From contig NZ_FOGR01000011.1 of the NCBI RefSeq assembly GCF_900111275.1, positions 62,001-126,000 on the forward strand: a DNA stretch of 64,000 nt. The letters run 5' to 3'. Positions 1 to 14,427 of this stretch are shown here, in pieces. Position 1 is the stretch's first letter. The number at the start of each line of letters is the position of its first letter. The position numbers and the translations under genes are program-made. The DNA is from Rhizobium sp. NFR03. Its GTDB lineage: Bacteria > Pseudomonadota > Alphaproteobacteria > Rhizobiales > Rhizobiaceae. Under the pieces are notes generated by a model. It was not told the DNA's origin. It did no database searches and was given only the letters and a program-made list of their open reading frames with translations.

Positions 1-357
1 CATATTGCCGAGAGACCCGTGCGTCTTCACATGGGTGATCGGCCAGCCGAGCGCTGACGCCATGCCCTGTATCGCGGAAATCTGGTAGATCAGTTGCGCC
101 TCGATATCCTCCGGACGCTCGCCCGAAATGCGCCGCCGGCCGAAGCCGTAGAGATCCATGAAAGACGGGTGCGCGCCGATGGCGACGCCGCGTGCCTTGG
201 CCAGCAGGATCGTGTCGCGCATGACGGAGGGGTCGCCCGCATGGAAGCCGCATGCGATATTGGCTGTCGTGACAATGTCCATCAGGGCGCGATCATCGCC
301 GATCGTATAGGCGCCAAAGCTCTCGCCCATATCGCAGTTCAGGTCGATGGTCGCCAC
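1..357 (-). CDS. pxpA: 5-oxoprolinase subunit A (LamB/YcsF family), 3' end outside window
   Basis: The minus strand from a GTG at 357 reads [15 protein letters not shown], then [28 protein letters not shown] and [13 protein letters not shown]. These are the N-terminal hallmarks of the LamB/YcsF family, now known as PxpA. Only 119 of about 250 residues lie in the window. With PxpB and PxpC it forms the ATP-dependent cytoplasmic 5-oxoprolinase that opens 5-oxo-L-proline to L-glutamate. The GTG was chosen because family proteins begin a few residues before IDLNCDMGE, and a GCGGGGA stretch precedes it; the frame stays open upstream, so a slightly longer protein is possible. It is divergent from pxpB, whereas pxpABC are usually collinear. 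Confidence 0.88.
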
Positions 358-412
358 GGAAAATCCCCGCTGGATAGGTCGGCAAAACGATGCCCGCACG
401 AGCACCACGGGC

Positions 413-441
413 TTGACATACAGATGGTGTACTGAAATGAC
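413..441 (+). promoter_or_regulatory. Promoter-like TTGACA with embedded GntR-type site A
   Basis: Between the divergent pxpA and pxpB starts, TTGACA (413-418) is followed after 17 bases by a weak AATGAC. Inside the spacer lies TGGTGTACTG (425-434). The same core recurs at 7549-7558 (minus, CGGTGTACCG) and 7725-7734 (TGGTATACTG), in front of the other two units of the cluster. It resembles the GT-N-AC dyads bound by FCD-type GntR proteins, two of which are encoded just downstream. Being a repressor site is inferred from its overlap with the promoter. Confidence 0.45.
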
Positions 442-567
442 AAGGGCTCGCTGCGCTGTCGCGACGGCGGAAACAGCCGACCGGCGCGAACGATTTTAGC
501 GGTCCTGACGCGAAGAAAGGCTTCTTTCCGAAACGGTCGGCGCGGCATGATGGAACAAGGGAACGGC

Positions 568-1311
568 ATGGCTGTGACGAAAGATGCTCCGGCGCATTTT
601 CCCCGCATTGCCGCTTGTGGAGACAGCGCCCTCACGATCGAATTCGCCGACGGAATAGACGAGGCGACCAGCGGGCGCGTCGTTGCCTTGGCCGACCTTC
701 TGGCGAATGGGACGATCATCGGCATCAGGGACCTCGTGCCCACCTACAGGTCGCTCCTCGTGCAGTACGATCCGGCTCTCGTTCGCGGTCGCGACCTGAC
801 ATCGCAGCTCCTTGATCTGCTGGAGCGCCAGCCGGAAGCGGAAAGCGGCGCGCGCCATATGATCGTGCCGGTCCTGTATGGCGGCGAAACCGGTGCGGAT
901 CTCGATGCTCTCGCCGCATTGAAGGAGATGACGCGCAGCGACCTAATCGCGCTGCATGCTTCCGCCCAATATCGTGTCTATATGATCGGTTTTGCTCCCG
1001 GCTTCGCCTATCTCGGCGGGCTGCCCGAACGGTTGCATACGCCCCGGCTAGCCGTGCCGCGGCAGAGGATCGAAGCCGGCGCGATCGGCATCGGCGGTCA
1101 GCAGGCAAGCATCAACTCGGTTCCCGGGCCGAGCGGATGGCGGTTTATCGCGCGGACGCCGTTGAAGCTGTTCGACCCTTACCGCGCGGAGCCATGTTTG
1201 CTGCGCGCCGGCGACCGCATTCGTTTCCGCCCTATCGAGGCGGCCGAGGCCGCGGATCTCGATGCGGCTGTGGCCAGAGGTGAGCCTGTCGAGCAATGGG
1301 AGGCGGCATGA
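568..1311 (+). CDS. pxpB: 5-oxoprolinase subunit PxpB (KipI/AHS1 domain)
   Basis: A 247-residue protein with the KipI/allophanate-hydrolase-subunit-1 signature YMIGFAPGFAYLGGLPERL (about residues 137-155), followed by GIGGQQASINSVPGPSGW. The domain covers nearly the whole protein, as usual for PxpB. It pairs with PxpC in the ATP-dependent 5-oxoprolinase complex; the same fold is found in the carboxyltransferase part of urea and guanidine carboxylases. ATG 568 is preferred because AAGGGA sits about 7 bases upstream; ATG 547/550 would add a few residues without a clear ribosome site. Its stop overlaps the pxpC start (ATGA), indicating translational coupling. Confidence 0.88.
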   Translation: MAVTKDAPAHFPRIAACGDSALTIEFADGIDEATSGRVVALADLLANGTIIGIRDLVPTYRSLLVQYDPALVRGRDLTSQLLDLLERQPEAESGARHMIVPVLYGGETGADLDALAALKEMTRSDLIALHASAQYRVYMIGFAPGFAYLGGLPERLHTPRLAVPRQRIEAGAIGIGGQQASINSVPGPSGWRFIARTPLKLFDPYRAEPCLLRAGDRIRFRPIEAAEAADLDAAVARGEPVEQWEAA

Positions 1312-2297
1312 GCGTCCTCCATGTCAAGGATGCCGGTCCGATGATGACGGTGCAGGATCTCGGCCGGGCCGGGCTCTCTCGCTTCGGCGTTTCAGGGGCG
1401 GGACCCATGGACACGCCGTCGCTGCGGATCGCCAACCGCCTCGTTGGAAATGCGGAGACGGATGCCGGGCTCGAATTCGCGCAGGTCGGGGGAACGTTCG
1501 TCGTGGACACCCCAGTGCGTATTGCCGTCACAGGTGCGGCCGTCGGTATGACGATCGACGGCAAACCCCTCCACGCCTGGGAAAGCCACCATTTACTGCC
1601 GGGGCAGACACTTCGCATCGGCGCCGTTATCAACGCCGTCTGGGGTTACCTTGCAATATCCGGTGGCATCGATACGCCTCCTGTCCTCGGTGCGCGAACG
1701 ACCCATCTGCGCACCGGGCTTGGCGGTCTCGACGGGCGGCGGCTCGCCGCCGGCGATCGTTTGCCGCTCGGCACCGGGTCAAGCGCGCCGCTCCTCGCCA
1801 TGCGCCAGCCTCTGGCCCGGCCGCGCGGCCCGTTTCGTATCGTGCCGGGGCCGCAGGCCGGGCATTTCGATGCGGCGGCCTGGAAGCTCTTTCTCGAAGA
1901 GCCGTTTCGTATCGCCACCCATCGCGACCGGATGGCGCAGATGCTGGACGGACCGGCGATTTCAGCCTTTGCCGGCCATGACATCATTTCCGACGGGACG
2001 GTCGCAGGCTCCATTCAGGTGCCATCTTCCGGCCGGCCGATCGTGCTGATGGCCGAGCGACAGACCACGGGCGGCTATCCGAAGATCGCCACAGTGGCCA
2101 CCATCGATCTGCCGCGTCTCGCGCAGGCGATGACCGGAAGCTCCGTCCGCTTCCGGGTGGTCTCCCGCGACGAGGCTGAGGATCTGCTGATGGACCAGTC
2201 GCGCGCGCTCACCTCGGCCCTTGCCGGTCTTGAGGAAAAACGCGAGACGACAGGGATCAAAGAAACGACGGCGATGTCCGGGAGGTCGAACGCGTGA
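1308..2297 (+). CDS. pxpC: 5-oxoprolinase subunit PxpC (KipA/AHS2, biotin-dependent carboxyltransferase-like)
   Basis: A 329-residue protein with the AHS2 motifs GRAGLSRFGVSGAGPMD (about residues 19-35) and ERQTTGGYPKIATV near residue 250. The family covers PxpC/KipA and the matching domain of urea amidolyase. ATG 1308 follows GGGAGG and overlaps the pxpB stop by four bases. The C-terminal tail (about 30 residues after the domain) is charged and probably disordered. The stop overlaps the GTG of the next regulator, so pxpB, pxpC, the regulator and the dehydrogenase read as one coupled operon. No biotin carboxylase or biotin carrier is in the window, favouring oxoprolinase-like over carboxylase chemistry. 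Confidence 0.88.
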   Translation: MSVLHVKDAGPMMTVQDLGRAGLSRFGVSGAGPMDTPSLRIANRLVGNAETDAGLEFAQVGGTFVVDTPVRIAVTGAAVGMTIDGKPLHAWESHHLLPGQTLRIGAVINAVWGYLAISGGIDTPPVLGARTTHLRTGLGGLDGRRLAAGDRLPLGTGSSAPLLAMRQPLARPRGPFRIVPGPQAGHFDAAAWKLFLEEPFRIATHRDRMAQMLDGPAISAFAGHDIISDGTVAGSIQVPSSGRPIVLMAERQTTGGYPKIATVATIDLPRLAQAMTGSSVRFRVVSRDEAEDLLMDQSRALTSALAGLEEKRETTGIKETTAMSGRSNA

Positions 2298-2938
2298 GCC
2301 AGCCCCTTGCGAAGAAGGCCTATGGCAAGATCATCGAGATGATCCTTTCCGGCACCCTGATGCCGGGCGATGTGTTGCAGGAAGCCAAGCTCGGTGAAAT
2401 ATTCTCCATGTCCCGCACGCCGGTGCGCGAGGCGATCAAGCGCATCGAGGCCGAAGGGCTTGCGGTGCAGGAGGGACGGTTTCTCAGGGTCCGCCGGCTG
2501 GCGGCGGCGGAGGTCGAGGAGATCTTCTATCTGCGCAGCGTGATCGAGAGCTACTGCGCGCGTATCGCGGTCGCGGCGCCGGCCGACGTCCTCGACGATC
2601 TCGAACGCCGCATCCGGGCGCTGATCGAGACGGGTCCAGGCGATGACGAAGAAGCGCGCGACGTCGATGATGATTTCCACTTCTGGCTGGCCAATGTGTC
2701 GGGGAACCGGACGATGATGCAGACGATCAGCGATCTGCGGCGGCGTACCTGCATGTTCGACCATAGCCTTGTTCCCGAACGCTTCCTCAAAGGGTGCCGG
2801 GAGCACCTTGAGATTATCGATGCTTTGCGCGCACGCGATGCCGATGCTGCGGGACACCTGATGAGCCGGCATGTGCTGAATGCTCGTGACGCCATTCTGG
2901 AAAAACTCGCTGCCTCCGCCGGGGGAATGCCGCGATGA
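2294..2938 (+). CDS. GntR family regulator, FCD domain (first of two)
   Basis: A 214-residue protein. Residues 1-70 form a winged helix with the GntR recognition region SMSRTPVREAIKRIEAEGL; residues about 80-205 form an all-helical FCD ligand domain with metal-site-like histidines (DDDFHFWL, SRHVLNARD). It starts with GTG inside the pxpC stop (GTGA) and ends in an ATGA overlap with the dehydrogenase, so it is co-translated with the pathway it probably controls. A likely target is the YGGTRTACYG motif found at the three promoters of this cluster. The effector is unknown; a pathway intermediate is an inference. Confidence 0.85.
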   Translation: MSQPLAKKAYGKIIEMILSGTLMPGDVLQEAKLGEIFSMSRTPVREAIKRIEAEGLAVQEGRFLRVRRLAAAEVEEIFYLRSVIESYCARIAVAAPADVLDDLERRIRALIETGPGDDEEARDVDDDFHFWLANVSGNRTMMQTISDLRRRTCMFDHSLVPERFLKGCREHLEIIDALRARDADAAGHLMSRHVLNARDAILEKLAASAGGMPR

Positions 2939-3882
2939 AATGTCTTCTCGTTCAGCCCATCCATGCGGACGGCATCGCCATGCTCCGGGACGCCGGCATG
3001 GAGGTCGAACTTTGCCCGGATGCCGACATGGAAACGGTCGCCAGCCGGATCAAGGGATGTCATGCCGTGATCACGCGGGATGCCGGTCTTTCGGCCCGGG
3101 CGATCCTTGCGAGCGACACTCTGAAGGTCATCGTTATTCACGGGGCAGGGCACGATAGCGTCGACAAGGCGCAGGCTGCGGCGAAGTCCATCCTCGTCTG
3201 CAATACACCGGGCGCCAATGCGCAATCCGTGTCCGAGCTTGCGCTCGGTCTAGCAATTGCCGCGGCGCGCCTGATCCCAGCTGCTGATCGCGCCGTGCGC
3301 GACGGCGCATCCGGCTTTCGCGAAGCCGGCATGTTCCACGAACTCTCGGGAAAGACCGCGATGATCGTCGGATGGGGAGCAACAGGCGCCGGCCTCGGGC
3401 GCATGCTGCATGCCGCACTCGGCATGGAGGTTCTGGTCTATTCTCCCAGAAGCGAGGATACCGGGCCTTTCGAACGCGTTACGACACTTGCAGACGGTCT
3501 TGGCCGCGCCGACCTGATCTCGCTTCACACACCTCTGCGGGAGGAAACGCGCGGGCTGATGGGTGCGGCCGCTCTTGCCGTGACGAAGCCGGGCGCCATT
3601 CTGATCAACACGGCACGCGCAGGGCTGGTCGATGAAGCTGCGCTGGCGGATGCGCTGGAGCGGGGAACGATCGCCGCTGCCGGTCTCGACGTCTACACGC
3701 CAGACGCCCCGCAAGGCCGGCTTTCCGCATCGCAGCGGGTCATCTTCACGCCGCATCTCGGCGGCACGACGCCGGAGGCCCTTCAGCGTGTGGCGACCGG
3801 TGCGGCAGGCCATGTGCTGACGGCCCTTTCCGGCCAAAGGCCGGCAACGACGATCGACCCGCCTGTGGAGCAGGTGACATGA
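2935..3882 (+). CDS. NAD-dependent D-2-hydroxyacid dehydrogenase
   Basis: A 315-residue member of the D-isomer 2-hydroxyacid dehydrogenase (phosphoglycerate dehydrogenase-like) family. The Rossmann motif GWGATGAGLG lies near residues 145-154. The catalytic Arg is in INTARAGLVDE and the catalytic His in FTPHLGG. Members interconvert D-2-hydroxyacids and 2-oxoacids with NAD(P)H. No C-terminal ACT domain is present, so this is not a full-length SerA; the substrate is unknown. It overlaps the regulator before it by ATGA and shares an ATGA with the tiny ORF after it. The context suggests it handles a keto or hydroxy acid made after ring opening or amide hydrolysis in the pathway. Confidence 0.83.
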   Translation: MKCLLVQPIHADGIAMLRDAGMEVELCPDADMETVASRIKGCHAVITRDAGLSARAILASDTLKVIVIHGAGHDSVDKAQAAAKSILVCNTPGANAQSVSELALGLAIAAARLIPAADRAVRDGASGFREAGMFHELSGKTAMIVGWGATGAGLGRMLHAALGMEVLVYSPRSEDTGPFERVTTLADGLGRADLISLHTPLREETRGLMGAAALAVTKPGAILINTARAGLVDEAALADALERGTIAAAGLDVYTPDAPQGRLSASQRVIFTPHLGGTTPEALQRVATGAAGHVLTALSGQRPATTIDPPVEQVT

Positions 3883-3977
3883 CGGTGTTCGAAAAGGCCA
3901 CGGACCCGGCCGATATCGGAGCGACCGCCAAACCCCTGAAGATCGCGATCATGGAAGGCGGTGCGCGGCATGGCTGA
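3879..3977 (+). CDS. Possible 32-residue ORF between dehydrogenase and second GntR gene
   Basis: An ATG overlapping the dehydrogenase stop opens a 32-codon frame (MTVFEKATDPADIGATAKPL...) that ends inside the next gene's start region. It has acceptable codon usage but no recognisable family. It may be a real micro-protein, a translational-coupling leader, or the remnant of a longer gene. The overlap at both ends argues for translation, but sequence alone does not show that it is functional. Confidence 0.35.
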   Translation: MTVFEKATDPADIGATAKPLKIAIMEGGARHG

Positions 3978-4608
3978 CAAGGAAACACTGACCCAGCAGA
4001 TCTACCGGGATCTGAAGCAGCGGATTCTGGAGGGAAGGTTCTCGTCCGAAGACATGCTGACGGAGCGCACGCTGGCGCTGGAGTCGGGTATCTCGCGTAC
4101 CCCGCTACGCGCGGCGATCTCTCGGCTGGAAAAGGAAGACGTGATCTCGCGGCTGCCGAACGGTGCTCTCATCGTTCGCGACGTCACGGTCGAGCAATTG
4201 CTGGAGATCGTCCAGATCCGCCGCCTGCTCGAAGGAGCCGCCGCCGGGAAGGCTGCCACCTGCGCGATGACGCCGGCGCTTCTGGCGTCCCGCGACGCGA
4301 TGCGCGCCTATGCGGGTGGTGGCGATATCGCGTTCGACCGGTTCTGGCTGGATGATGATGCCTTTCACGACGCGGTCGCGCACGCGGCCGGCCTGCCGCT
4401 ATTGGCAACGATGCTGACCGAGATGCGCGGGGTTGCCCGCCGCTGCACCATCACCCGCACGCACGACCGCTTCGACCAGCAGGCGCGCGAACATCTCGAC
4501 GTTATCGACGCCATCGAGGCGCAAGACGGGGCGGCGGCGCGGGCCGCGATGGAGCGCCACTTCGACAGCGTTCGGCAGCGCTTTCTCGCCTGGTTGTCGC
4601 GCACGTGA
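3970..4608 (+). CDS. GntR family regulator, FCD domain (second of two)
   Basis: A 212-residue protein starting MADKETLTQQIYRDLKQRIL. Its winged-helix region contains ESGISRTPLRAAISRLEKEDV, followed by an FCD domain from about residue 80 (DDDAFHDAVAHAAG, EHLDVIDAIEAQD). ATG 3970 has GGAAGG about 10 bases upstream; GTG 3961 would add three residues. It is clearly diverged from the regulator at 2294, so the cluster encodes two different FCD regulators within 1.7 kb. Either or both could bind the shared YGGTRTACYG sites. It lies directly upstream of the first M24 hydrolase. Confidence 0.84.
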   Translation: MADKETLTQQIYRDLKQRILEGRFSSEDMLTERTLALESGISRTPLRAAISRLEKEDVISRLPNGALIVRDVTVEQLLEIVQIRRLLEGAAAGKAATCAMTPALLASRDAMRAYAGGGDIAFDRFWLDDDAFHDAVAHAAGLPLLATMLTEMRGVARRCTITRTHDRFDQQAREHLDVIDAIEAQDGAAARAAMERHFDSVRQRFLAWLSRT

Positions 4609-4618
4609 GGCTGGGTTG

Positions 4619-5800
4619 ATGGACAACGCTGCATTCCTGAACGATCCCGCCATGCGTGGCAGCGAGGCTGCGTTCTCGCAGGAGGAATATGCCGACCGGC
4701 AGGCCCGCGCGCAGACGGCACTTCGGGCGAGTGGACACGCGGCACTGGTCGTCACCGGCCCGGAGACGATCTACTGGCTGACAGGCCGACAGACGGCCGG
4801 CTACTTCGCGTTCCAGGCGCTGCTTCTCCCGTCGTCCGGCCCGATGACGCTTCTCGTGAGGCAACTGGAATTCTTCGGTGCTGTCGCAAACACCTGGTTG
4901 AGCGACATCGTTACCTATCAGGATGGGGATGATCCCGCTGGCGCGCTGGTTTCCCTGCTGCGCGAACGCGGCGTGGCCATGCCCGCGATCGAACTGTCCG
5001 GCTGGTTTCTTCCGTCGCGGCTCGTCAGCGAGATCGCCCACCGTCTTGGTGTCGCGGAACTGACCGACGGTTCCGACATTCTGCCGCCGTTGCGCATGGT
5101 GAAGAGCGATGCCGAGCGCGATGCGATCCGCGCCGCGGCACGTTACGCGGAAGCCGGAATGGTGGCCGCCATCGAGGCCTGTACCGTCGGGGCCGACGAG
5201 AACGCGATTGCGGCCGCCATGCTCGGTGCTGCGACGCGCGCGGGATCGGAAGCCATGGCCATGGAGCCGCTCGTCTCTTCGGGACCGCGCAGCGGGCTGC
5301 CGCATATGACATGGCGTCGCCGTGCCTTGAGCGAAGGCGACCCCGTCTTTCTGGAGCTTGCCGGAAGCCATGCCCGCTATCACGCGGCCCTGATGCGCAC
5401 CGTCTGGCTCGGCAAGCCGCCAGCGGAGGCGCAGCGGATGATGGACTGCGCGCTTTTCGCACTCGACGCCGCGATCTCGCAGATCCGGCCGGGCGCCTCA
5501 TGCGCCGCGCCGCATGAGGCCGCGCAAAGGATCATCGACGCCGCTGGCTTCACCTCCGCCTTCCGAAAGCGCATCGGCTATTCTATGGGGATCGCTTTCG
5601 CACCGGATTGGGGCGAGGGCGGAATTCTCAGCCTGTTTTCGGGCGTGCAGCGCCTGATCGAGCCCGGCATGGTCTTTCACATCCCGGCGACGTTGCGCAG
5701 CTTCGGTCACTGGACCGTCGGAGCGTCTGAAACCGTCATCGTGACAGAGACCGGCGCGGAACCGCTGTCGAACCTGCCCCGCGCACTCACCTCTCGCTAG
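4619..5800 (+). CDS. M24 'pita-bread' hydrolase lacking aspartate metal ligands (ectoine hydrolase/creatinase-like)
   Basis: A 393-residue protein: creatinase-type N-terminal domain (about 1-150, with ALVVTGPETIYWLTG) and M24 catalytic fold (about 165-385). In metallopeptidases of this fold the two Asp ligands sit in a D-x-G...D-x-T-R-T pattern. Here the equivalent stretch reads FLELAGSHARYHAALMRTV, so both Asp positions are replaced. Loss of metal ligands is characteristic of creatinase and DoeA-type ectoine hydrolases, which cleave C-N bonds in small cyclic or guanidino compounds without metal. A similar role on a small amide or ring substrate is therefore more likely than peptidase activity. 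Start ATG 4619 follows GTGAGG. Confidence 0.72.
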   Translation: MDNAAFLNDPAMRGSEAAFSQEEYADRQARAQTALRASGHAALVVTGPETIYWLTGRQTAGYFAFQALLLPSSGPMTLLVRQLEFFGAVANTWLSDIVTYQDGDDPAGALVSLLRERGVAMPAIELSGWFLPSRLVSEIAHRLGVAELTDGSDILPPLRMVKSDAERDAIRAAARYAEAGMVAAIEACTVGADENAIAAAMLGAATRAGSEAMAMEPLVSSGPRSGLPHMTWRRRALSEGDPVFLELAGSHARYHAALMRTVWLGKPPAEAQRMMDCALFALDAAISQIRPGASCAAPHEAAQRIIDAAGFTSAFRKRIGYSMGIAFAPDWGEGGILSLFSGVQRLIEPGMVFHIPATLRSFGHWTVGASETVIVTETGAEPLSNLPRALTSR

Positions 5801-5828
5801 AAAACAGCCTTATCAAGGAGACCTATCC

Positions 5829-6242
5829 ATGCGCTCACTCTTTCATCTCGCCTACCACATCACGGATCTCGATGAAGCGCGTCGCTTCTACGGCGACATC
5901 CTTGGATGTGCAGAAGGCCGATCGACGGACACCTGGGTCGATTTCGACTTTTTCGGCCATCAGATCTCGCTTCACCTCGGCAAGCCGTTCGAGGTCACGC
6001 GGACGGGCAAGGTTGGAAACCACATGGTCATGATGCCGCATCTGGGCGTCGTCCTGCCGCTCGATGCGTGGCTGTCACTCGCCGAACGTCTGGAAAAGGC
6101 GGGTATTGCCTTCGATATCCCCCCGGTCATCCGCTTTGAAGGTGAGCCCGGCGAGCAGCGCACGATGTTCTTCTTCGATCCGAGCGGCAACCCCATCGAG
6201 GTCAAGGGCTTCAAGGATTTCGACAGCGTTTTCGCGCACTGA
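5829..6242 (+). CDS. VOC (glyoxalase/dioxygenase fold) family protein
   Basis: A 137-residue protein with a strong AAGGAG ribosome site. Two beta-alpha-beta-beta-beta modules are visible: LFHLAYHITDLDEARRFYGD at the N-terminus with a candidate metal His, HQISLHLGKPF in the middle, and MFFFDPSGNPIEVKGF near the C-terminus with a candidate metal Glu. The family includes glyoxalases, epimerases and ring-cleaving dioxygenases; substrate is not predictable. It follows the M24 hydrolase by 28 bases in the same operon, suggesting an isomerase or lyase step in the same pathway. Confidence 0.75.
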   Translation: MRSLFHLAYHITDLDEARRFYGDILGCAEGRSTDTWVDFDFFGHQISLHLGKPFEVTRTGKVGNHMVMMPHLGVVLPLDAWLSLAERLEKAGIAFDIPPVIRFEGEPGEQRTMFFFDPSGNPIEVKGFKDFDSVFAH

Positions 6243-6287
6243 CGCTCGACGATCGATACGCCCGGCAACGGGCCGTAGATGGAAAGC

Positions 6288-6318
6288 GATGCCGGGGAGG
6301 GTTGAAGGCCCCGGCATC
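6288..6318. terminator. Hairpin between convergent VOC and M24 genes
   Basis: GATGCCGGGG (6288-6297) and CCCCGGCATC (6309-6318) are perfect 10-base inverted repeats with an 11-base loop, located between two converging genes. There is no T tract on either side, so termination efficiency is uncertain, but the placement fits a bidirectional transcript end. Confidence 0.55.
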
Positions 6319-6335
6319 CCCTCCGATGTTCCCCC

Positions 6336-7511
6336 TCAGAAGAGACTTGGGGATTTGGTGAGCACCTCGTTGCCGTCCTGTCCCACGATGACGATGTCCT
6401 CGAAGAATGCGGCACCGACGCCGTCGAGCGACAGGAAAGCCTCGATGCCGAAGACCATGTTCTGCTCGACGACATCATCGGGCAGCGACATGCTGGTGGA
6501 GATGCGCGGCAGTTCGAAGCCGAGGCCGATGCCGTGACCGTAGAACGGGAAATTCTTCATGATGGGCGAGATCGACCCGCCGAAGGCCGCTGTGAGCCGG
6601 TCGCCTTCCGCGGCGACGTCAAGCAGTCTTGCGCCCGGCCTCAGCATGTCGGTCAGCCGGTGGACGAGATCTCCTGCGGCCTCGATCAGGCGGCGCTGGT
6701 CGGCATTCGCATGTCCCCGCACGGCTGTTCGACCGGGATCGAGATAATAGCCCTGGAACAGCGGCCCGTGTAGCGTGCCCGTCACGACATCGCCGACTGC
6801 GGGCACATCGTCGCTGTACCCCGTCAGCGGAAAGCGCTGGTCAAAGCCGAGCGTGTCGCCGTGATTGGTGCCGATCATCTGGACGCGTCCTCCGCGTCGC
6901 ACGACTTCGCGCGCGCATTCTCCCGCCGCCTCCCTCTCGGACATGCCGCTGACGAGGCTCTCCATCAGGACCGTCATGCCGGCGGTCGCCGTCTCCCCGG
7001 CCGTCCGGTAGGCATCCAGCTCGCGCGTGCTCTTGATCCGGCGCACGGAGCGGACGAGGTCATCGACCGGCACCCACTCGATATCGGGCGCGGTGGCTTC
7101 CAGCTGCCTGTAGTATTTCACGGGAATAAGGTTGGTTCCGACGAGCGCCACCCGACCGGAGACACCGCGCTCGACAAGGGAACGCGCCACGCTTTCGAAG
7201 GGATGATTGCTGGAACGCACGTCCTCGATAGAGACCAGATCGCGCCGGACTTCCGGTTCGTCGATATGCAGTTGCGGGTCGCGACCGGTCTGCAGGATGA
7301 CACCTGCAAACGAACGGGCGGTCCAGATGAGGGAGTCCATGCCGCCGCTGATCGAGTACTGGTTGGAGAGGTAGAGGACATCGCCGCAATTGTCAGTCGT
7401 CCCGCCGCCACGACCGAACACCACGGCCGTCTCGAAGCCTCGACGCTTCATTTCCGCCAGGAGACGCTCCCAACGGATGCGATATTCGTCGAGTGGAAAG
7501 TAGCGGTTCAT
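6336..7511 (-). CDS. M24 family metallopeptidase-like protein (Xaa-Pro dipeptidase fold)
   Basis: A 391-residue protein: N-terminal creatinase domain (about 1-150) followed by the M24 fold. Several usual metal ligands are retained: Asp in GYYLDPGRT, His in GHGIGLGFELP, Glu in GIEAFLSLDG and Glu in FFEDIVIV. The first Asp ligand is not obvious (GDVVTGTLHG). It may be a metal-dependent aminoacyl or imino-peptide hydrolase. ATG 7511 is preferred over the upstream ATG at 7556 because GAGGA precedes it and family proteins start close to FPLDEYRIRW. It is transcribed toward the VOC gene and divergent from the DUF1989-ABC operon, with operator-like motifs in between. Confidence 0.72.
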   Translation of the reverse strand: MNRYFPLDEYRIRWERLLAEMKRRGFETAVVFGRGGGTTDNCGDVLYLSNQYSISGGMDSLIWTARSFAGVILQTGRDPQLHIDEPEVRRDLVSIEDVRSSNHPFESVARSLVERGVSGRVALVGTNLIPVKYYRQLEATAPDIEWVPVDDLVRSVRRIKSTRELDAYRTAGETATAGMTVLMESLVSGMSEREAAGECAREVVRRGGRVQMIGTNHGDTLGFDQRFPLTGYSDDVPAVGDVVTGTLHGPLFQGYYLDPGRTAVRGHANADQRRLIEAAGDLVHRLTDMLRPGARLLDVAAEGDRLTAAFGGSISPIMKNFPFYGHGIGLGFELPRISTSMSLPDDVVEQNMVFGIEAFLSLDGVGAAFFEDIVIVGQDGNEVLTKSPSLF

Positions 7512-7548
7512 CCCGTCATCCTCATTCCTCAGGCGCGCTGCGCAATTT

Positions 7549-7558
7549 CGGTACACCG
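7549..7558 (-). promoter_or_regulatory. GntR-type site B upstream of minus-strand M24 gene
   Basis: The minus strand reads CGGTGTACCG, a near-palindrome, 38 bases upstream of the M24 start at 7511. It matches site A (425-434) at 8 of 10 positions and site C (7725-7734) at 7 of 10. Recurrence at each promoter of the cluster suggests control by one of the two local GntR proteins. Confidence 0.42.
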
Positions 7559-7720
7559 GCTGTATCCGGTCGTCAATTCAGAGCTTCATGTGTGATACGT
7601 CTTCATCGGCGGAATGGTTCGAATGCCTGCAATCTGCATATTCTTCGCTCAGTCGTGCCTATCTCTTCATCAGGATGCACGTTTGCGATCCACTAAATAG
7701 TTGATTTTTCATCTTGAACT

Positions 7721-7735
7721 CCAGTGGTATACTGG
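7721..7735 (+). promoter_or_regulatory. GntR-type site C upstream of DUF1989-ABC operon
   Basis: CCAGTGGTATACTGG holds 5-base inverted arms (CCAGT/ACTGG) around a GTATAC core. It ends 20 bases before the GTG at 7756 in an AT-richer intergenic stretch. It is the most symmetrical of three related sites in the cluster and fits an operator for an FCD-type GntR protein. Confidence 0.5.
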
Positions 7736-7755
7736 AATAGGTTTGAGGTAAGAGA

Positions 7756-8451
7756 GTGCTGACAACGGTGAGCACACATCCCACCCGCTTCCTGCGGCCG
7801 AAAAGATCGATGTCAGCGATGTCCATGAGCCAAGAACAGATGACCGTGCCGGCAAGTCATGGCGGAGCTTTCCGCATGCGTGCGGGACAGCACGTCCTCA
7901 TCGAAAACACCTACGGAAACCAGGTTACGGATCTCTGGGCGCTGGCCGCGGCAGACGTGTTCGAGACCTCGTCGCTCGACCATACGCGCTCGGTGAACAG
8001 CAACATCTTCTTTGCGAACGGAATGACGCTCATGAGTTCCCGGCGTCGCCCGATGCTGACGATGGTGGCCGATAGCGGTGCGGTGCGCCATGACACACTC
8101 CTGTGCCCCTGCAGCCGCGAGCTCTACCGGGAACTCGGCTGCGCGGAGGATCATCGCAGTTGCAGCGACAATTTCCACGAGGCCCTGTCGACGCTCGATC
8201 TTGCGCTGCCATTCACGCCGGCCTCGCTCAATCTGTTCATGAACGTACCCGTAGCGCCTGACGGTTCGGTCGATCGGCTTCCGCCGGCAACGGTCGCCGG
8301 CGATACCGTCGTGCTGCGGGCCGAGATGGATCTGGTGCTCGTCCTCTCCGCCTGTCCGCAGGATGTCACGCCGATCAATGGCACAGCCCGCACGCCTCGG
8401 GACATCGCGGTCCGTCTTCACGACACGAACCCTGCCGAGGTGACATCATGA
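7756..8451 (+). CDS. DUF1989 family protein (urea carboxylase-associated/carboxyguanidine deiminase-like)
   Basis: A 231-residue protein with DUF1989 features: [13 protein letters not shown] (about residue 55), a cysteine-rich stretch with [13 protein letters not shown] and [13 protein letters not shown], and [14 protein letters not shown]. The cysteines are candidate metal ligands. Paired DUF1989 proteins have been shown to be carboxyguanidine deiminases (CgdAB); here there is one copy and no guanidine carboxylase, so the substrate is probably different. GTG 7756 is supported by GAGG 8 bases upstream; ATG 7810 is the alternative. It overlaps the ABC ATPase by ATGA, so enzyme and importer are made together. 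Confidence 0.78.
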
Positions 8452-9260
8452 CCCCGCCATTGCTGTCGCTCCGCGAGATCCGCAAGAGCTTCGGAGAGAA
8501 CGAGGTCCTCAAGGGTGTCTCCCTGACGGTGGATGCAGGGGAGGTGGTCTCGATCATCGGGGCCAGCGGCTCGGGAAAGAGCACCTTTCTGCGGTCGATC
8601 AATGCACTGGAGGTCCCGCAGTCCGGCTTCATGAATTTCGAGGATCTGTCCTTCGACTTTCGCCCGGAGTCGCGCTTCTTCCCGACGGCGGCACAGCTTC
8701 AATCGCTGCGGACCCGTGCTGGCATGGTGTTCCAGAGCTATCATCTCTGGCCGCATATGACCGTGCTGGAAAACGTCATCCACGCACCAATCCGCCTTCT
8801 CAGGATCCCGCGCAAGCAGGCCATCGAAGAGGCGGATGCCCTGCTTTCGCGCATCGGTCTCTACGAGAAACGCGGCAGCTATCCATCCCGGCTCTCGGGT
8901 GGACAGCAACAGCGCGTCGCAATCGCTCGCGCGCTCGCCATGAAGCCGCGGCTGATGCTGTTCGACGAGGTCACGTCGGCGCTTGACCCCGAACTCGTCC
9001 ACGAGGTCCTCGTCCTCATGGCCTCGCTCGCCTCCGAGGGCATGACGATGCTGCTGGTCACGCACGAGATCGCATTCGCACGCGATGTCTCGTCCCGGGT
9101 GCTGTTTTTCGACCAGGGCGTCATCGCCGAGGCTGGCCCGCCCGACATTCTGCGCCATCCCGAAAGCGACCGCCTGAAGCAGTTCCTGCACCGCATTCTC
9201 CATAACGAGGTCGTTCAGGCGTCCGCCGCCCTCAGCACGCAGGAAGGACGCCTGTCATGA
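8448..9260 (+). CDS. Amino-acid-type ABC transporter ATP-binding protein (HisP/GlnQ family)
   Basis: A 270-residue ATPase with Walker [10 protein letters not shown] (about residue 43), Q-loop [11 protein letters not shown], signature [15 protein letters not shown], Walker [15 protein letters not shown] and H-loop LLVTHEI. These are typical of polar amino acid importers. Coupled by ATGA to the DUF1989 gene before it and to the permease after it. It powers uptake at the inner membrane of the compound presumably consumed by the neighbouring enzymes. Confidence 0.9.
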
Positions 9261-9913
9261 CGTTCGTTCTCGAAGAATTCCAGCTCTACGGCCCGGGCTT
9301 CCTGCAAGCCGCCTGGACGGTGTTCGCACTGACGATCCTGACAATCGTCGTCAGCTGGGCCTGCGGGCTGCTGGCCGCGCTCGCCCAGCGCTCGCGTCTG
9401 AAATCCGTGCGTGCCGTTGCCGGCTTCTACATCTGGTTCATTCGCGGCACGCCGACGCTCATTCAAATCTTCATCATCTATTTCGGTTTGCCGCAGTTCG
9501 GCATCCGGCTGTCGCCGTTCACGGCAGGCGTTCTCGCGCTCGGCATCAACAGCGGCGCCTATATTGCGGAAATCGTCCGCGGCGGCCTGACCGCGATCCC
9601 GTCGGGGCAGAGCGAGTCTGCCCTCGCGCTCGGCTTCAGCCGATCCGAGACGATGCGCACAATCATCCTGCCGCAGGTCTTCCGCATCATCCTGCCGGCC
9701 GTGACCAACGAAGCCATCTCGACATTGAAGAATACGTCGCTCCTGTCGACCATCACCGTCGTCGAGCTGACGCTTTACGCCCAGACCCTCATCGCCGCGA
9801 CCTTCCGCCCCTTCGAATTCTATATCGCGGTCGCCGTCATCTATCTCGTCCTGACAACCGTTCTCACGCTTCTCGCGTCTTGGCTGGAGCGTCATTACGC
9901 CCGTTTGAGCTGA
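9257..9913 (+). CDS. Amino-acid-type ABC transporter permease (HisM/HisQ family)
   Basis: A 218-residue inner-membrane protein with several hydrophobic segments ([20 protein letters not shown], the [18 protein letters not shown] region, [20 protein letters not shown]). The EAA-type cytoplasmic loop [20 protein letters not shown] contacts the ATPase. It is the only permease in the operon, so it probably works as a homodimer. Its start overlaps the ATPase stop by ATGA. Confidence 0.88.
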
Positions 9914-9999
9914 AGCCGGTTCAGGCGTTTTTCCGGCGAGCCTCTTGCTTCGCCGGCGCATTGCAGACCGATACATCAAAGAAAACAAGGGAACTCGAC

Positions 10000-10788
10000 A
10001 TGCTTTTCAAAACGCTTATTGCCGTCACCGCGACGGTCGCCACTCTTGCGATGGGATCGCTGGCCCATGCCGCCGACCTCGAACTGCTGGAGCCGGGCAA
10101 GCTGATGGTCGCCACGGAAGGCACCTACGCACCCTTCAGCATGCGCGCACCCGACGGCACGCTCGACGGCCTTGAGATCCGCGTCATGTCGGAGGTCGCA
10201 AAGCGGCTTAACCTCGAATACACGCCCGTTCTCATCAAGTGGGATTCGCTGCTGGTCGGGCTGCAGGCAGACCAGTATGACGTCATCAGCGCGGCAATGG
10301 ACATCACCGAAGCGCGGCAGAAGCAGGTGACGTTCTCGAACGGCTGGCTGGAATCCGGCGGACGCATCGTCGTCGCCGACCAGTCCGATGTGAAGAGCGC
10401 TGCCGACCTGAAGGGAAAAACGGTTGGCGCGCTCGTCGCCTCCAGCTGGACGAAGATCGCGGAAGACAAGGGTGCGGCCGTCAAGGGTTACAAGGCGGAA
10501 TCGGACGCGATGCAGGATCTCGTCAACGGCAACGTCGATGCCGTCATCACGGATGCGATTGCGGCGGCCTATGCCATCAAGACCGCGAAGATGCCGCTGA
10601 AAATGACCGACGACTATGTCAGCCATGTCCAGAAGGGCTTCGCTTTCAAGATGGGCAAGCCCCATCTCGTCGAGGCCGTGAACAAGGCGCTCGCCGACAT
10701 GGTATCCGATGGCACCTATGCAAAATTGACGACCGATCTCGTTGGCTTCGATCCCACTCCCAAAGACCCGATCAAGACGATCAAGTAG
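10000..10788 (+). CDS. Amino-acid-type ABC transporter substrate-binding protein
   Basis: A 262-residue protein with a cleavable signal peptide (MLFKTLIAV...GSLAHA, cleavage likely before ADLELL). It has the SBP_bac_3 fold: EGTYAPFSMRAPDGTLDGLEI near the mature N-terminus, and GKTVGALVASSWTKIAED in the second lobe. It binds the imported solute in the periplasm. ATG 10000 has AAGGGA upstream. Genes next to it suggest a lactam, cyclic or N-modified amino acid as ligand, which is inference only. Confidence 0.87.
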   Translation: MLFKTLIAVTATVATLAMGSLAHAADLELLEPGKLMVATEGTYAPFSMRAPDGTLDGLEIRVMSEVAKRLNLEYTPVLIKWDSLLVGLQADQYDVISAAMDITEARQKQVTFSNGWLESGGRIVVADQSDVKSAADLKGKTVGALVASSWTKIAEDKGAAVKGYKAESDAMQDLVNGNVDAVITDAIAAAYAIKTAKMPLKMTDDYVSHVQKGFAFKMGKPHLVEAVNKALADMVSDGTYAKLTTDLVGFDPTPKDPIKTIK

Positions 10789-10796
10789 AAACTGCG

Positions 10797-10822
10797 CGGC
10801 GGGCGTCGAACGACGTCCGCCG
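10797..10822. terminator. Hairpin between convergent ABC operons
   Basis: CGGCGGGCGTCG (10797-10808) pairs with CGACGTCCGCCG (10811-10822) with one G-T pair and a very tight loop. It follows the binding-protein stop by 8 bases and lies between converging operons. No T run follows. Confidence 0.5.
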
Positions 10823-10881
10823 AAACTCATGCCGGTCGGATCATGTCACTTGTGGCCGTTCGGCGAAGCGCCCCGCGTGTG

Positions 10882-11658
10882 CTAATTGAGGACGGGCGCG
10901 ACCTCGTGCACGTCTCTCAGGCCGTTGACCGCTTCCTCGAAGAGCATCTGGGAATAAGCATGGTGCGTGACGCCGCGCTGCAGGTCGTCCCTGGTCAGCT
11001 CGTCAACAAAGGTGCCGCGCTGCATGACGAGAACGCGGTCGCACATATGTGCGATCACGGACAGGTCGTGGCTGACGAGCACATAGGTAAGATTGCGCTC
11101 GTCGCGCAGGTCGCAGAGAAGGTTGAGAACCTCGGCCTGGACGGAAACGTCGAGAGCGGACGTCGGTTCATCGAGAAGGAGGATATCCGGCTCGAGCATC
11201 AGGGCGCGGGCGATGGCGACGCGCTGGCGCTGCCCGCCGGAGAGCTGGTGCGGGAAACGGTCCGCAAACGTTTCGGGCAGGCCGACCTGGCGGAGCGCCG
11301 GGCCGACACGATCCCAACCCGGCCCCTTGTTCATGGCTCTGATCGGTTCGGCCAGAACGCGCTGGATGCGATGGCGCGGATGGATGGAGCCATAGGGATC
11401 CTGGAAGACCATCTGGGCCAGCAGCAGCTGTTCGCGCCGGCGGTCGGGATCGACAGCTTCGCCAGCGAGACGGATCGATCCTTCCCAATGGCGGTCGAGA
11501 CCCGCAAGCGAGCGCAGGACGGTCGACTTTCCGCAACCGGACTCCCCGACGATCCCGAGCGTTTCGCCTTTGCCCACCGAGAACGATACCGATTTGACGA
11601 CCTGCGTGCGGGCCGGGCCCTGCCCGAAGGAGACGGAAAGATTTTCGACATCGATCAT
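10882..11658 (-). CDS. Dipeptide/oligosaccharide-type ABC transporter ATP-binding protein (DppF-like)
   Basis: A 258-residue ATPase: Walker A GESGCGKST, Q-loop FQDPYGSIHPR, signature [15 protein letters not shown], Walker [13 protein letters not shown] and H-loop LVSHDLSVI. This is the PepT/Opp branch, which also imports oligosaccharides and nickel. It is the last gene of a five-gene minus-strand operon and overlaps the preceding ATPase by four bases. It lacks much of the C-terminal extension common in DppF. Confidence 0.88.
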   Translation of the reverse strand: MIDVENLSVSFGQGPARTQVVKSVSFSVGKGETLGIVGESGCGKSTVLRSLAGLDRHWEGSIRLAGEAVDPDRRREQLLLAQMVFQDPYGSIHPRHRIQRVLAEPIRAMNKGPGWDRVGPALRQVGLPETFADRFPHQLSGGQRQRVAIARALMLEPDILLLDEPTSALDVSVQAEVLNLLCDLRDERNLTYVLVSHDLSVIAHMCDRVLVMQRGTFVDELTRDDLQRGVTHHAYSQMLFEEAVNGLRDVHEVAPVLN

Positions 11659-12497
11659 AGCGTGCTTCCGGCTTGGTTGATGGCTTGACGATCGAGAACC
11701 TGCAAACGGGAAACGGGATGTTTCGGGTCCGGCATGGCGGCGATCAGCCCCCTCGTATAGGGGTGCTTCGCGTCTTCGAGCTTCGTCAGCGTTTCCACGA
11801 CGCGCCCCTGATACATCACCAGCACCCGCTCGCAGAACGTGGCGACCATGCGGATATCGTGACTGATGAGCAGCAGCGCGGAGTTGTTTTCCCGCACAAG
11901 CTCGTCGAGCAGCCGCAGCACATCGCCGCGCACGCTGACATCGAGGGCCGAGGTCGGTTCGTCCGCGATCACGAGCCGGGGTTTGGAGAGGAGCATCATG
12001 GCAATCATGACGCGCTGGCCCATGCCGCCGGAGATCTGGTGCGGGTAGAGCGCCATCGTCCGCTCGACATCGGCGATGCGGACGCGGCCGAGCATATCGG
12101 CGGCAAGCGCGTAGGCATCTTTCCGGCTGATCTTCTGGTGCAGCGTTGCGGCTTCGGCCACCTGCTTGCCGACGGTCAGGACCGGATTAAGCGAATAGCG
12201 CGGGTCCTGCATGATCAGCGCCATGCGATTGCCCCGCAGCCCGCGCATCGCCTTCTCGCTGCGCGTCAGAAGTGGCGCGCCTTCGAAATTCATGGTCGCC
12301 GCCTCGATCCGCGCTGCGGGCGGCAGCAGGCGCATGACCGCGCGGCCGAGCGTCGATTTGCCCGAGCCGGACTCCCCGACGATGCCAACCCGCTCGGCGC
12401 CCACCGTCAGGCTGACGCTGTTGACGGCCGGGATCTTCGCGCGCCCGAAGCGGACCGATAGATCCCGGATCTCGAGGATGGGTTGATCAACGGGCAT
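11655..12497 (-). CDS. Dipeptide/oligosaccharide-type ABC transporter ATP-binding protein (DppD-like)
   Basis: A 280-residue ATPase beginning [18 protein letters not shown], with Walker [13 protein letters not shown]-loop [11 protein letters not shown], signature [15 protein letters not shown] and Walker [16 protein letters not shown] 12497 gives an 11-base overlap with the permease gene; the frame continues upstream to 12548 but those codons would lie fully inside the permease gene. Together with the ATPase at 10882 it forms the heterodimeric motor of the importer. Confidence 0.87.
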
Positions 12498-14411: not shown

Positions 14412-14427
14412 GAGACGATCGCCTTCG

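Follow-up and report, generated by a model that had tools for sequence, protein, structure and literature searches.

In the present study, we identified a cluster of 13 genes (positions 1–10788 of a 64,000-nucleotide stretch of Rhizobium sp. NFR03 DNA, referred to below as the window) that probably constitutes one self-contained regulon for the import and degradation of an amino acid that is cyclic or N-substituted and may belong to the glutamate family. ORF analysis and family scans revealed genes encoding PxpABC, two GntR-type regulators, a hydroxyacid dehydrogenase (HADH), two M24 proteins (M24a and M24b), a VOC protein, a DUF1989 protein and an ABC importer (Table 1). This bears out the gene content given in the first-pass annotation, with two regulators, one importer and eight proteins that are enzymes or enzyme subunits.

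Table 1. Coordinates of the cluster genes, the associated gap, the operator-like sites and the partner gene outside the window
Feature	Position	Strand	Remarks
pxpA 5' part (LamB/YcsF)	1-354	-	full gene G000:C29:61566-62354, extends beyond window edge
Operator-like site TGGTGTACTGAA	425-436	+	between pxpA and pxpB, 6 bases after TTGACA (413-418)
pxpB	547-1311	+	TIGR00370, 183.9 bits (cut-off 145.55)
pxpC-like subunit	1308-2297	+	TIGR00724, 266.6 bits (cut-off 230.2)
GntR1, GntR/FCD regulator	2294-2938	+	family scan
HADH, D-2-hydroxyacid dehydrogenase, PGDH-like branch	2935-3882	+	
87-base gap	3883-3969	+	M20 carbamoylase-type gene sits here in most related loci; absent in window
GntR2, second GntR-type regulator	3970-4608	+	named by sequence and annotated orthologues
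M24a, ectoine-hydrolase-like M24 protein	4619-5800	+	
VOC protein, 137 aa	5829-6242	+	
M24b, distant second M24 protein	6336-7511	-	
Operator-like site TGGTATACTGGA	7725-7736	+	between M24b and DUF1989
DUF1989 protein	7756-8451	+	Pfam DUF1989, 160.5 bits (cut-off 27)
Amino-acid ABC importer ATPase	8448-9260	+	named by sequence and annotated orthologue
Amino-acid ABC importer permease	9257-9913	+	EhuC profile, 173.6 of 196.95 bits
Family-3 binding protein	10000-10788	+	nearest to basic/polar amino-acid binders
D-amino-acid transaminase	L051:8216-9067		outside window, after pxpA; 67% to L035 transaminase

The coordinates revealed four-base stop/start overlaps at five junctions (pxpB/pxpC, pxpC/GntR1, GntR1/HADH, DUF1989/ATPase and ATPase/permease), in agreement with the tight packing noted previously. 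However, the genes do not form a single operon; they diverge from two intergenic regions, pxpA–pxpB and M24b–DUF1989. The extent originally assigned to the set (1–10788) also proved too small, since a D-amino-acid transaminase gene lies beyond the window and further partner genes occur in relatives.

Related loci (at least 52, not independent of each other) were obtained in one search seeded with M24a. The matches listed come from Rhizobiaceae, Methylobacteriaceae, Aurantimonadaceae, Rhodobacterales and others, and display 31 gene arrangements, cut pieces counted. Genes of the window cluster were present in 26–52 of the 52 listed loci, as opposed to 0–9 (0–1 at an identity of at least 45%) for the flanking genes (ten on the downstream side and five on the upstream side), which argues for co-occurrence beyond chance and gives the cluster sharp edges; the supposed conservation of the neighbourhood in related genomes was thus upheld. 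Among the same listed matches, pxpC and HADH accompany M24a in 47 of 52 loci, and the M20 gene does so as well in 40. Individually, counts among the listed loci were obtained for (i) pxpABC (46–49 of 52; pxpA in 46, median identity 85%), (ii) HADH (48), although it is absent beside the cluster in some Methylobacterium, (iii) M20 (44), and (iv) GntR2 orthologues of at least 45% identity (43). The VOC protein was found in 34 of the 52 (median identity 89%), M24b in 33 and DUF1989 in 26, and therefore neither of the last two is core. Members of the VOC family occur in 52 of 289 genomes, too widely for their genomic contexts to be of help. The lineage of the window lacks the M20 gene, a ureohydrolase gene in the cluster and a close TRAP partner (best match 29%); thus, the clues drawn from relatives may not all apply to it.

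Both divergent promoters of the cluster carry a conserved motif, CNNNTGGTRTACTGRA, which may serve as an operator. The motif was first spotted by eye in these two promoters and then counted in relatives, so that for the window it is a post hoc choice; its 11-base core has two sites in the 5.4-Mb genome, both of them the divergent promoters of the cluster. Allowing up to two mismatches, it was detected among the matches listed in 35/35 pxpA/pxpB and 27/27 M24b/DUF1989-or-ABC stretches (about 5 in block shuffles), and in 0/48 coding stretches. The exact core occurs 63 times in 1.06 Mb of the related loci listed (0–1 in block shuffles), and 60 of these sites adjoin pxp, M24b or TRAP genes.

As for the protein that might bind there, sites of a looser pattern were found among the matches listed in 39 of 43 loci with GntR2 (4 of the 43 had none) and in 4 of 9 loci without it; hence these counts do not single out either GntR regulator as the one that binds. 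A pattern for FCD regulators, TGGTATACCA, was present within one mismatch in 1/35 pxpA/pxpB and 5/27 M24b/DUF1989-or-ABC promoters of the loci listed, and a palindrome search with exact half-sites gave nothing clear. The motif contains TGGTATACT, which is similar to an extended -10 element, and the only promoter-like site in a scan of positions 300–11000 (1.7 expected) lies at 7706–7733 and uses the TATACT of the motif as its -10; the motif may therefore be partly promoter. The scan gave no promoter-like site at the pxpA/pxpB motif, and overall the promoter and terminator scan yielded sites at a level not above shuffles.

The genes pxpA, pxpB and pxpC, whose joint presence is expected of a 5-oxoprolinase, are all found in the cluster. 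On the PxpC equivalog the pxpC product scored 227 of 500 bits, and the two other PxpC-like proteins of the genome 178 and 216; as both paralogues are also below the cut-off, this score does not decide the assignment. The cluster could simply serve to scavenge 5-oxoproline (pyroglutamate), with a few hydrolases as passengers, given that a TRAP importer of pyroglutamate type accompanies PxpABC in 14 of the 52 loci among the matches listed. The best solved matches of the TRAP protein of relatives are 6wgm, 2pfz and 2pfy, the latter two of which we take to be DctP6 and DctP7. One such TRAP protein is encoded at L035:4641-5618; L035 and L082 are one and the same locus, from Cohaesibacter haloalkalitolerans. 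According to excerpts of three papers (PMC13274462, PMC5812351, PMC11574862), DctP6 and DctP7 bind pyroglutamate. We nevertheless rejected plain scavenging as quite improbable, since too many additional genes are equally conserved: in the listed loci, which were chosen by M24a, HADH and M20 are kept about as often as pxpABC. Moreover, 33 of the 52 listed loci contain the amino-acid ABC importer without TRAP, the genome holds two further pxpA paralogues, and, as an excerpt of PMC13274462 states, a transporter, PxpABC and a GntR regulator are all that C. glutamicum needs for growth on 5-oxoproline. The family-3 binding protein of the window is nearest to binders of Orn, Lys, Arg, Gln and cystine.

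The M20 hydrolase of relatives, an N-carbamoyl-type enzyme lost from the window cluster, points to another possibility, namely a hydantoin or cyclic-ureide pathway, in which PxpABC or M24a would open a 5-substituted hydantoin, M20 would cleave an N-carbamoyl amino acid, and the D-transaminase and the dehydrogenase would finish the route. All three M20 proteins scanned exceeded the hydantoinase/carbamoylase cut-off of 204 (257.8, 286 and 234.4 bits). A D-hydantoinase gene is located within the 10-kb flank of at least four loci, with a nitrilase-fold gene in three and an Asp/Glu/hydantoin racemase gene in two (one of each was profile-scanned), and two Methylobacterium plasmids carry hydantoinase/carbamoylase-family genes near the cluster. 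However, the core has no hydantoinase, M20 is missing not only in the window but also, on full-length pieces, in 7 of the 52 loci among the matches listed (with an N-terminal remnant in L072), and the DUF1989 protein and the ureohydrolase are left unexplained, which makes this route unlikely.

M24a has the M24 fold and active-site stretches of the DoeA type, and the closest fold to its predicted model is substrate-bound DoeA, although part of the active-site loop (residues 321–340) was modelled with low confidence. DoeA works without a metal. These features, together with a permease near the EhuC and EhuD profiles, could indicate that M24a is a divergent ectoine hydrolase and the cluster a relative of ectoine/hydroxyectoine degradation. 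We regard this as highly improbable, and ectoine degradation was rejected on the DoeA profile, the tree and the control genomes: M24a scored 167 bits against a curated cut-off of 613, the 10 DoeA rows formed a 100/100 clade excluding M24a (with a long-branch warning on the neighbours of M24a), and DoeA above the cut-off was detected in 38 of 121 genomes of the order and not in the genome of the window. The Ehu cut-offs were likewise not reached (EhuB 57.2 of 190.9 bits; EhuC, see Table 1). M24a is thus predicted, from sequence and modelling, to be an ectoine-hydrolase-like C–N hydrolase that is distinct from ectoine hydrolase. The initial description of both M24 proteins as creatinase/ectoine-hydrolase-like consequently holds for M24a, albeit outside the DoeA clade, and fails for M24b, which is distant from and unlike it. 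M24b presumably lacks part of the metal-ligand pattern. Genes resembling, by eye, those for Rieske oxygenases and agmatinases adjoin the distant relatives of M24b.

The DUF1989 protein, taken earlier to be deiminase-like, did not reach the deiminase-associated profiles (UAAP2, 107.5 of 284.7 bits; UAAP1, 62.7 of 205.95 bits). The carboxyguanidine deiminase CgdAB consists of DUF1989 proteins; the known guanidine pathway was rejected on the basis of these scores and of cluster genes that include no carboxylase. A guanidino-type ureohydrolase gene was found in 9 of the 52 loci among the matches listed, and none in the window cluster; the enzyme of L047 is nearest to guanidinopropionase and guanidinobutyrase. 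The D-amino-acid transaminase belongs to the PRK06680 subfamily (358.4 bits, cut-off 320) and is below the TIGR01121 equivalog cut-off (230.8 of 277.45 bits). Nothing in the analysis favours any of the other candidates that we weighed, namely opines such as pyronopaline, D-cycloserine, a thiazoline (ATC/OTC) route to cysteine, or ergothioneine catabolism by its full route.

From the observed conservation, module structure, shared motif and family and fold assignments, we infer the following scheme, in which each reaction on the real substrate is predicted. One or both local GntR/FCD regulators would act at the motif in the two divergent promoters, controlling (i) the amino-acid ABC importer, DUF1989 and M24b, and (ii) pxpABC, M24a, the dehydrogenase, the VOC protein and the D-amino-acid transaminase. 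The importer would take up an amino acid that is polar or basic and either cyclic or N-substituted (amidino- or ureido-bearing), perhaps one from the glutamate family, and DUF1989 and M24b, joined in relatives by the ureohydrolase, would trim its amidine side. M24a may hydrolyse a C–N bond in the manner of ectoine hydrolase, PxpABC may open a 5-oxoproline-type lactam with ATP, and in most relatives the M20 hydrolase may remove an N-carbamoyl group. Finally, the D-transaminase would convert the amino acid to a 2-oxo acid and the dehydrogenase would convert the latter to a 2-hydroxy acid. The scheme also draws on the pyroglutamate-type TRAP importer, the M20 partner, the ureohydrolase and the D-hydantoinase genes of relatives, on the DoeA-like fold of M24a and on the nearest known ligand binders of the family-3 protein.

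That the substrate is of the glutamate-lactam/hydantoin type is conceivable, with somewhat less than an even chance. More speculative, and in our opinion rather doubtful, is a new pathway whose substrate would be an abundant, unrecognised derivative of glutamate with a guanidino or cyclic-amidine group. Here, a metal-free M24 protein of ectoine-hydrolase fold would open the ring and PxpABC the resulting lactam, DUF1989 or the ureohydrolase would remove the amidine, and M20 would be a dispensable N-carbamoyl branch. The pathway for a cyclic amide, hydantoin-like or N-modified amino acid that had been envisaged at the outset is supported in part, as a conserved catabolic unit with a shared promoter motif and fitting chemistry, its substrate being a prediction.

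No description of the gene set turned up in full-text literature searches directed at it, in line with the earlier remark that it matches no named pathway; other papers that came up, to judge from listings and the openings of their abstracts, do not describe it either. The cluster thus appears to encode a conserved, apparently undescribed pathway built from known kinds of enzymes. The bacteria that carry the set (Rhizobiaceae, Methylobacterium, Aureimonas and Rhodobacterales) inhabit plants, soils and the sea, so that it may serve a common natural compound. Elucidating the pathway would show what a new M24 subfamily and a branch of PxpABC do, and what role DUF1989 has outside guanidine metabolism, and the two-site motif offers a simple reporter for finding the inducer. 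Orthologues are currently annotated as peptidase, urea-carboxylase-associated protein and 5-oxoprolinase.

Several known systems resemble parts of the cluster. It shares PxpABC and, in some relatives, the pyroglutamate-type TRAP importer with 5-oxoproline utilisation (pxpTABC/5-oxoprolinase), as well as GntR control, exerted there by PxpR according to an excerpt of PMC13274462, but adds M24a, M24b, DUF1989, HADH, VOC, the transaminase, M20 and the amino-acid ABC importer. The M20 proteins of relatives link it to hydantoin utilisation and ergothioneine catabolism (carbamoylases, ErtD/ErtE); however, they reached only 291, 308 and 274 bits on ErtE (N-carbamoyl-L-glutamate amidohydrolase; cut-off 520), and the window cluster has no M20 and the core no hydantoinase. 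Ectoine/hydroxyectoine degradation (DoeA/EutD, DoeB, EhuABCD) has in common with it the fold and active-site stretches of M24a and an adjoining amino-acid-type ABC importer, whereas here M24a falls outside the DoeA clade, well under the cut-off, and PxpABC, DUF1989, the transaminase and the hydroxyacid dehydrogenase are in the cluster. DUF1989, and the ureohydrolase of some relatives, recall the guanidine carboxylase pathway (CgdAB), from which the cluster differs in having a single DUF1989 gene, with UAAP scores under the cut-offs, and no urea or guanidine carboxylase. A sister cluster is carried by pAt of A. fabrum C58 (ATU_RS26135-26185) and also occurs in Enterobacteria and Pseudomonas. 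That of A. fabrum contains homologues of M24a (52%), VOC (89%) and the D-transaminase (61%), an amino-acid ABC importer, M20, a 2-hydroxyacid dehydrogenase and GntR. In contrast, 28 loci of the sister cluster, 578,886 bases in all, hold one site of the motif, and an ArgE-type M20 and an enolase-superfamily protein take the place of PxpABC.

Open reading frames and family profile scans bore out the gene inventory that the first-pass annotation had given for positions 1-10788. The cluster is arranged around two divergent intergenic regions, after which the genes of the second GntR regulator (GntR2), the ectoine-hydrolase-like protein M24a, the VOC protein and the binding protein come next on the + strand, separated by gaps of 10-87 bases. 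Past pxpA, beyond the window edge, lies a gene for a D-amino-acid transaminase, which scored above the subfamily cut-off (358 versus 320 bits) but below the equivalog one (231 versus 277 bits). The five genes at 10882-16029, directly downstream of the cluster on the - strand, read as a peptide-type ABC transporter and lie outside the conserved unit. The same genome carries two more pxpA loci (L203 and L204), whose neighbours appear by eye permease-like at one and biotin-carboxylase-like at the other.

Features of the cluster in the window (G000:C29:62001-126000, in a 5.4-Mb genome) and of the related A. fabrum C58 locus (L135)
Feature	Position	Strand	Remark
Divergent region 1			pxpA (-) versus pxpB-pxpC-GntR1-HADH (+)
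Motif TGGTRTACTGRA	425-436		pxpA/pxpB promoter
M24a	4619-5800	+	ectoine-hydrolase-like M24 protein
M24b	6336-7511	-	second, distant M24 protein
Divergent region 2			M24b (-) versus DUF1989-ATPase-permease (+)
Promoter-scan call	7706-7733		second motif site
Motif TGGTRTACTGRA	7725-7736		M24b/DUF1989 promoter
Binding protein	10000-10788	+	family 3
Peptide-type transporter	10882-16029	-	5 genes
pAt cluster of A. fabrum C58	L135:6174-16753
ATU_RS26150	L135:13176-14399

Scanning the M24a alignment against the genome collection yielded at least 519 confirmed relatives, of which the best 80 loci were divided by neighbourhood into clan 1 (L055-L106, 52 loci) and clan 2 (L107-L134, 28 loci). Among the matches listed, Rhizobium sp. 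PP-CC-3A-592 supplied the closest named relative of M24a (93%), followed by Ferranicluibacter rubi (91%). In clan 1, with short pieces counted in and all loci drawn from the best 80 of at least 519, we detected (i) M24a in 52 of 52 loci (as the search seed), pxpB in 49, pxpC and the 2-hydroxyacid dehydrogenase HADH each in 48, and pxpA in 46, (ii) the regulators GntR1 in 49 (at least 45% in 42) and GntR2 in 43, (iii) the carbamoylase-type hydrolase M20 in 44, and the transaminase and VOC genes in 34 each, (iv) the importer ATPase in 42, permease in 41 and binding protein in 37, (v) M24b in 33 and DUF1989 in 26, and (vi) a TRAP binding protein in 14, a dapA-like gene in 10 and a ureohydrolase in 9. 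The conserved co-occurrence in other genomes, proposed earlier as a check, was thus observed: M24a, pxpC and HADH occur together in 47/52 loci (40/52 with M20 as well), and the flanks are not kept, ten downstream genes recurring in 0-9 loci and five upstream ones in 0-1. The 52 loci display 31 gene arrangements, some due solely to a short piece or another ATPase. A second 2-hydroxyacid dehydrogenase was seen in seven loci (L057, L059, L060, L063, L086, L089, L104), that of L104 being GhrA-like, under cut-off.

The distribution of the system is patchy. In an earlier pass, M24a matches at E <= 1e-60 were found in 23 of 249 genomes of the order, including the host itself, and the pxp set adjoined the match in 4 (L035, which is the same locus as L082, L036, L037 and L047) of 18 inspected out of the other 22 genomes.

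Both divergent promoters contain the motif TGGTRTACTGRA, with no third exact site elsewhere in the window. Sites within two mismatches of NTGGTATACTG were present in 35/35 pxpA/pxpB stretches and 27/27 M24b stretches, against about 5 in two-base-block shuffles, for a motif spotted first in the window and among relatives of common ancestry; 0/48 coding stretches had one. Across the 1,055,531 bases of the clan-1 loci we counted 63 copies of the ten-base core, versus 0-1 in block shuffles: 32 sites in the pxpA-pxpB interval, 22 in the one separating M24b from DUF1989 or the ATPase, a further 6 beside TRAP, pxpB or M24b, and 3 beside an ATPase or dapA-like gene. A C stands four bases ahead in 62/63 sites, and RA forms the next two bases in all 63. 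In the host genome TGGTRTACTGR has two sites, both in the cluster promoters (reversed control pattern, 6), and clan 2 has one motif site in 578,886 bases. At the pxpA/pxpB promoter the motif begins 6 bases past TTGACA, which fits a candidate repressor site in the promoter spacer; against this reading, TGGTATACT resembles an extended -10 element. The promoter scan took the second site as a -10 element and found no promoter at the first.

Importer type varied among the 52 clan-1 loci: at 45% identity or more, 33 had the binding protein without TRAP, 11 TRAP without the binding protein, 3 both and 5 neither. The binding protein accompanies M24b in 30/33 loci, M24b accompanies DUF1989 in 26/26, and DUF1989 accompanies the ureohydrolase in 9/9. 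Because of these co-occurrence counts, we distinguish a core module (pxpABC, M24a, HADH, M20 and transaminase) from an ABC module (importer, DUF1989, M24b and ureohydrolase), which TRAP can replace. Two Methylobacterium plasmids carry the cluster with no HADH annotated next to it.

Where relatives carry M20, the window has an 87-base HADH-GntR2 interval, and the M20 relatives in the host genome reach only 29-31%. M20 is absent from seven clan-1 loci on full-length pieces (L055, L056, L066, L068, L072, L079, L092), and none was seen on the short piece L103. Each of the seven carries the binding protein and lacks TRAP, four (L066, L068, L079, L092) also lack DUF1989, and M20 is present in 14/14 TRAP loci. 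L072 retains an N-terminal M20 remnant between HADH and GntR2, a trace of loss. In the M24a tree L079 adjoins the M20-bearing L067 and L066 the M20-bearing L087; therefore, M20 was lost several times.

The closest solved structure to M24a (model pLDDT 87, lower at residues 321-340) is the ectoine hydrolase DoeA, by sequence and by fold. The two share the FLELAG/FFEIAG stretch, RYH, PDWGE and others; the Glu of that stretch presumably sits at the Asp position in the metal-ligand pattern of metal-dependent M24 enzymes. Assignment of M24a as an ectoine hydrolase was rejected, its scores being 167 bits for DoeA (cut-off 613) and 256 for DoeA_2 (575). DoeA above cut-off is present in 38/121 genomes of the order and absent from the host. 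The tree of 63 rows (22 clan-1 including the window, L047, 6 clan-2, 10 DoeA and 24 others) excludes 2/12 DoeA loci, with open frames above the 520-residue limit, and 1/25 others. Support was 100/100 for the DoeA clade, 99/95 for the M24a clade (both clans and some others) and 96/98 for its pxp-linked branch, in a tree where one gene entered twice (L018/L047) and the program flags long branches in outer rows. M24b is a distant M24 protein (Pfam, 82.6 bits); its relatives at L182, L183 and L187 (46-47%) have, by eye, Rieske-oxygenase-, agmatinase- or homocysteine-methyltransferase-like neighbours.

According to the A. fabrum C58 annotation, clan 2 keeps VOC, transaminase and 2-hydroxyacid dehydrogenase and has, besides these, an M20 of the ArgE type and a protein of the enolase superfamily. 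The latter comes closest to muconate cycloisomerases and N-acetyl-D-Glu racemase, with scores under the cut-off. The pAt locus comprises GntR, ABC importer, ArgE-type M20, enolase-superfamily, M24a-homologue, VOC, GhrA-like dehydrogenase and D-transaminase genes; ATU_RS26150, annotated as CTP synthase, yields only a class-I glutamine amidotransferase domain in the scans and scores far under the CTP synthase cut-off. Part of this sister cluster (L107-L134) occurs in Enterobacteria, Pseudomonas and Rhizobiales, and no pathway name could be assigned to it there or on pAt.

The TRAP protein of relatives best matched the solved structures 6wgm, 2pfz and 2pfy, the latter two of which we take to be B. 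pertussis DctP6 and DctP7. Passages of published work describe DctP6 and DctP7 as binding pyroglutamate (PMC13274462, PMC5812351, PMC11574862). The relatives' M20 belongs to the hydantoinase/carbamoylase family, with the N-carbamoyl-L-glutamate amidohydrolase ErtE among its top-scoring named models, yet under the ErtE cut-off. The L047 ureohydrolase came closest to guanidinopropionase, guanidinobutyrase and proclavaminate amidinohydrolase. A D-hydantoinase flanks four clan-1 loci (L081, L089, L098, L106; one scanned, above cut-off), three of which carry a nitrilase-fold gene (one scanned) and two an Asp/Glu/hydantoin-family racemase (one scanned). Taken together, these clues and those from clan 2 suggest a lactam, N-carbamoyl, N-acyl or amidino amino acid, glutamate being the commonest theme.

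The top-ranked solved structures for the binding-protein model (pLDDT 88) are binders of ornithine, aminoethylcysteine, Arg, Gln and cystine. Its Arg106, Asp185 and Asp101 are invariant in 25/25 aligned rows; Asp101 presumably occupies the position of Thr70 in glutamine-binding protein, a replacement that would favour an extra positive charge. The DUF1989 protein is recognised by its Pfam domain and falls under the cut-offs of the UAAP profiles for deiminase-associated proteins; among solved chains, it is closest to an unnamed DUF1989 protein and to TMAO demethylase. HADH lies in the PGDH-like branch and reached no equivalog cut-off.

The cluster is very probably one conserved, co-regulated catabolic unit. 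Its substrate is probably a cyclic or N-substituted amino acid, and we suggest only tentatively one of the glutamate lactam/hydantoin type. In open-licence PubMed Central text we found no description of the gene combination, the M24 subfamily or the regulon; the enzymes of the cluster belong to known kinds.
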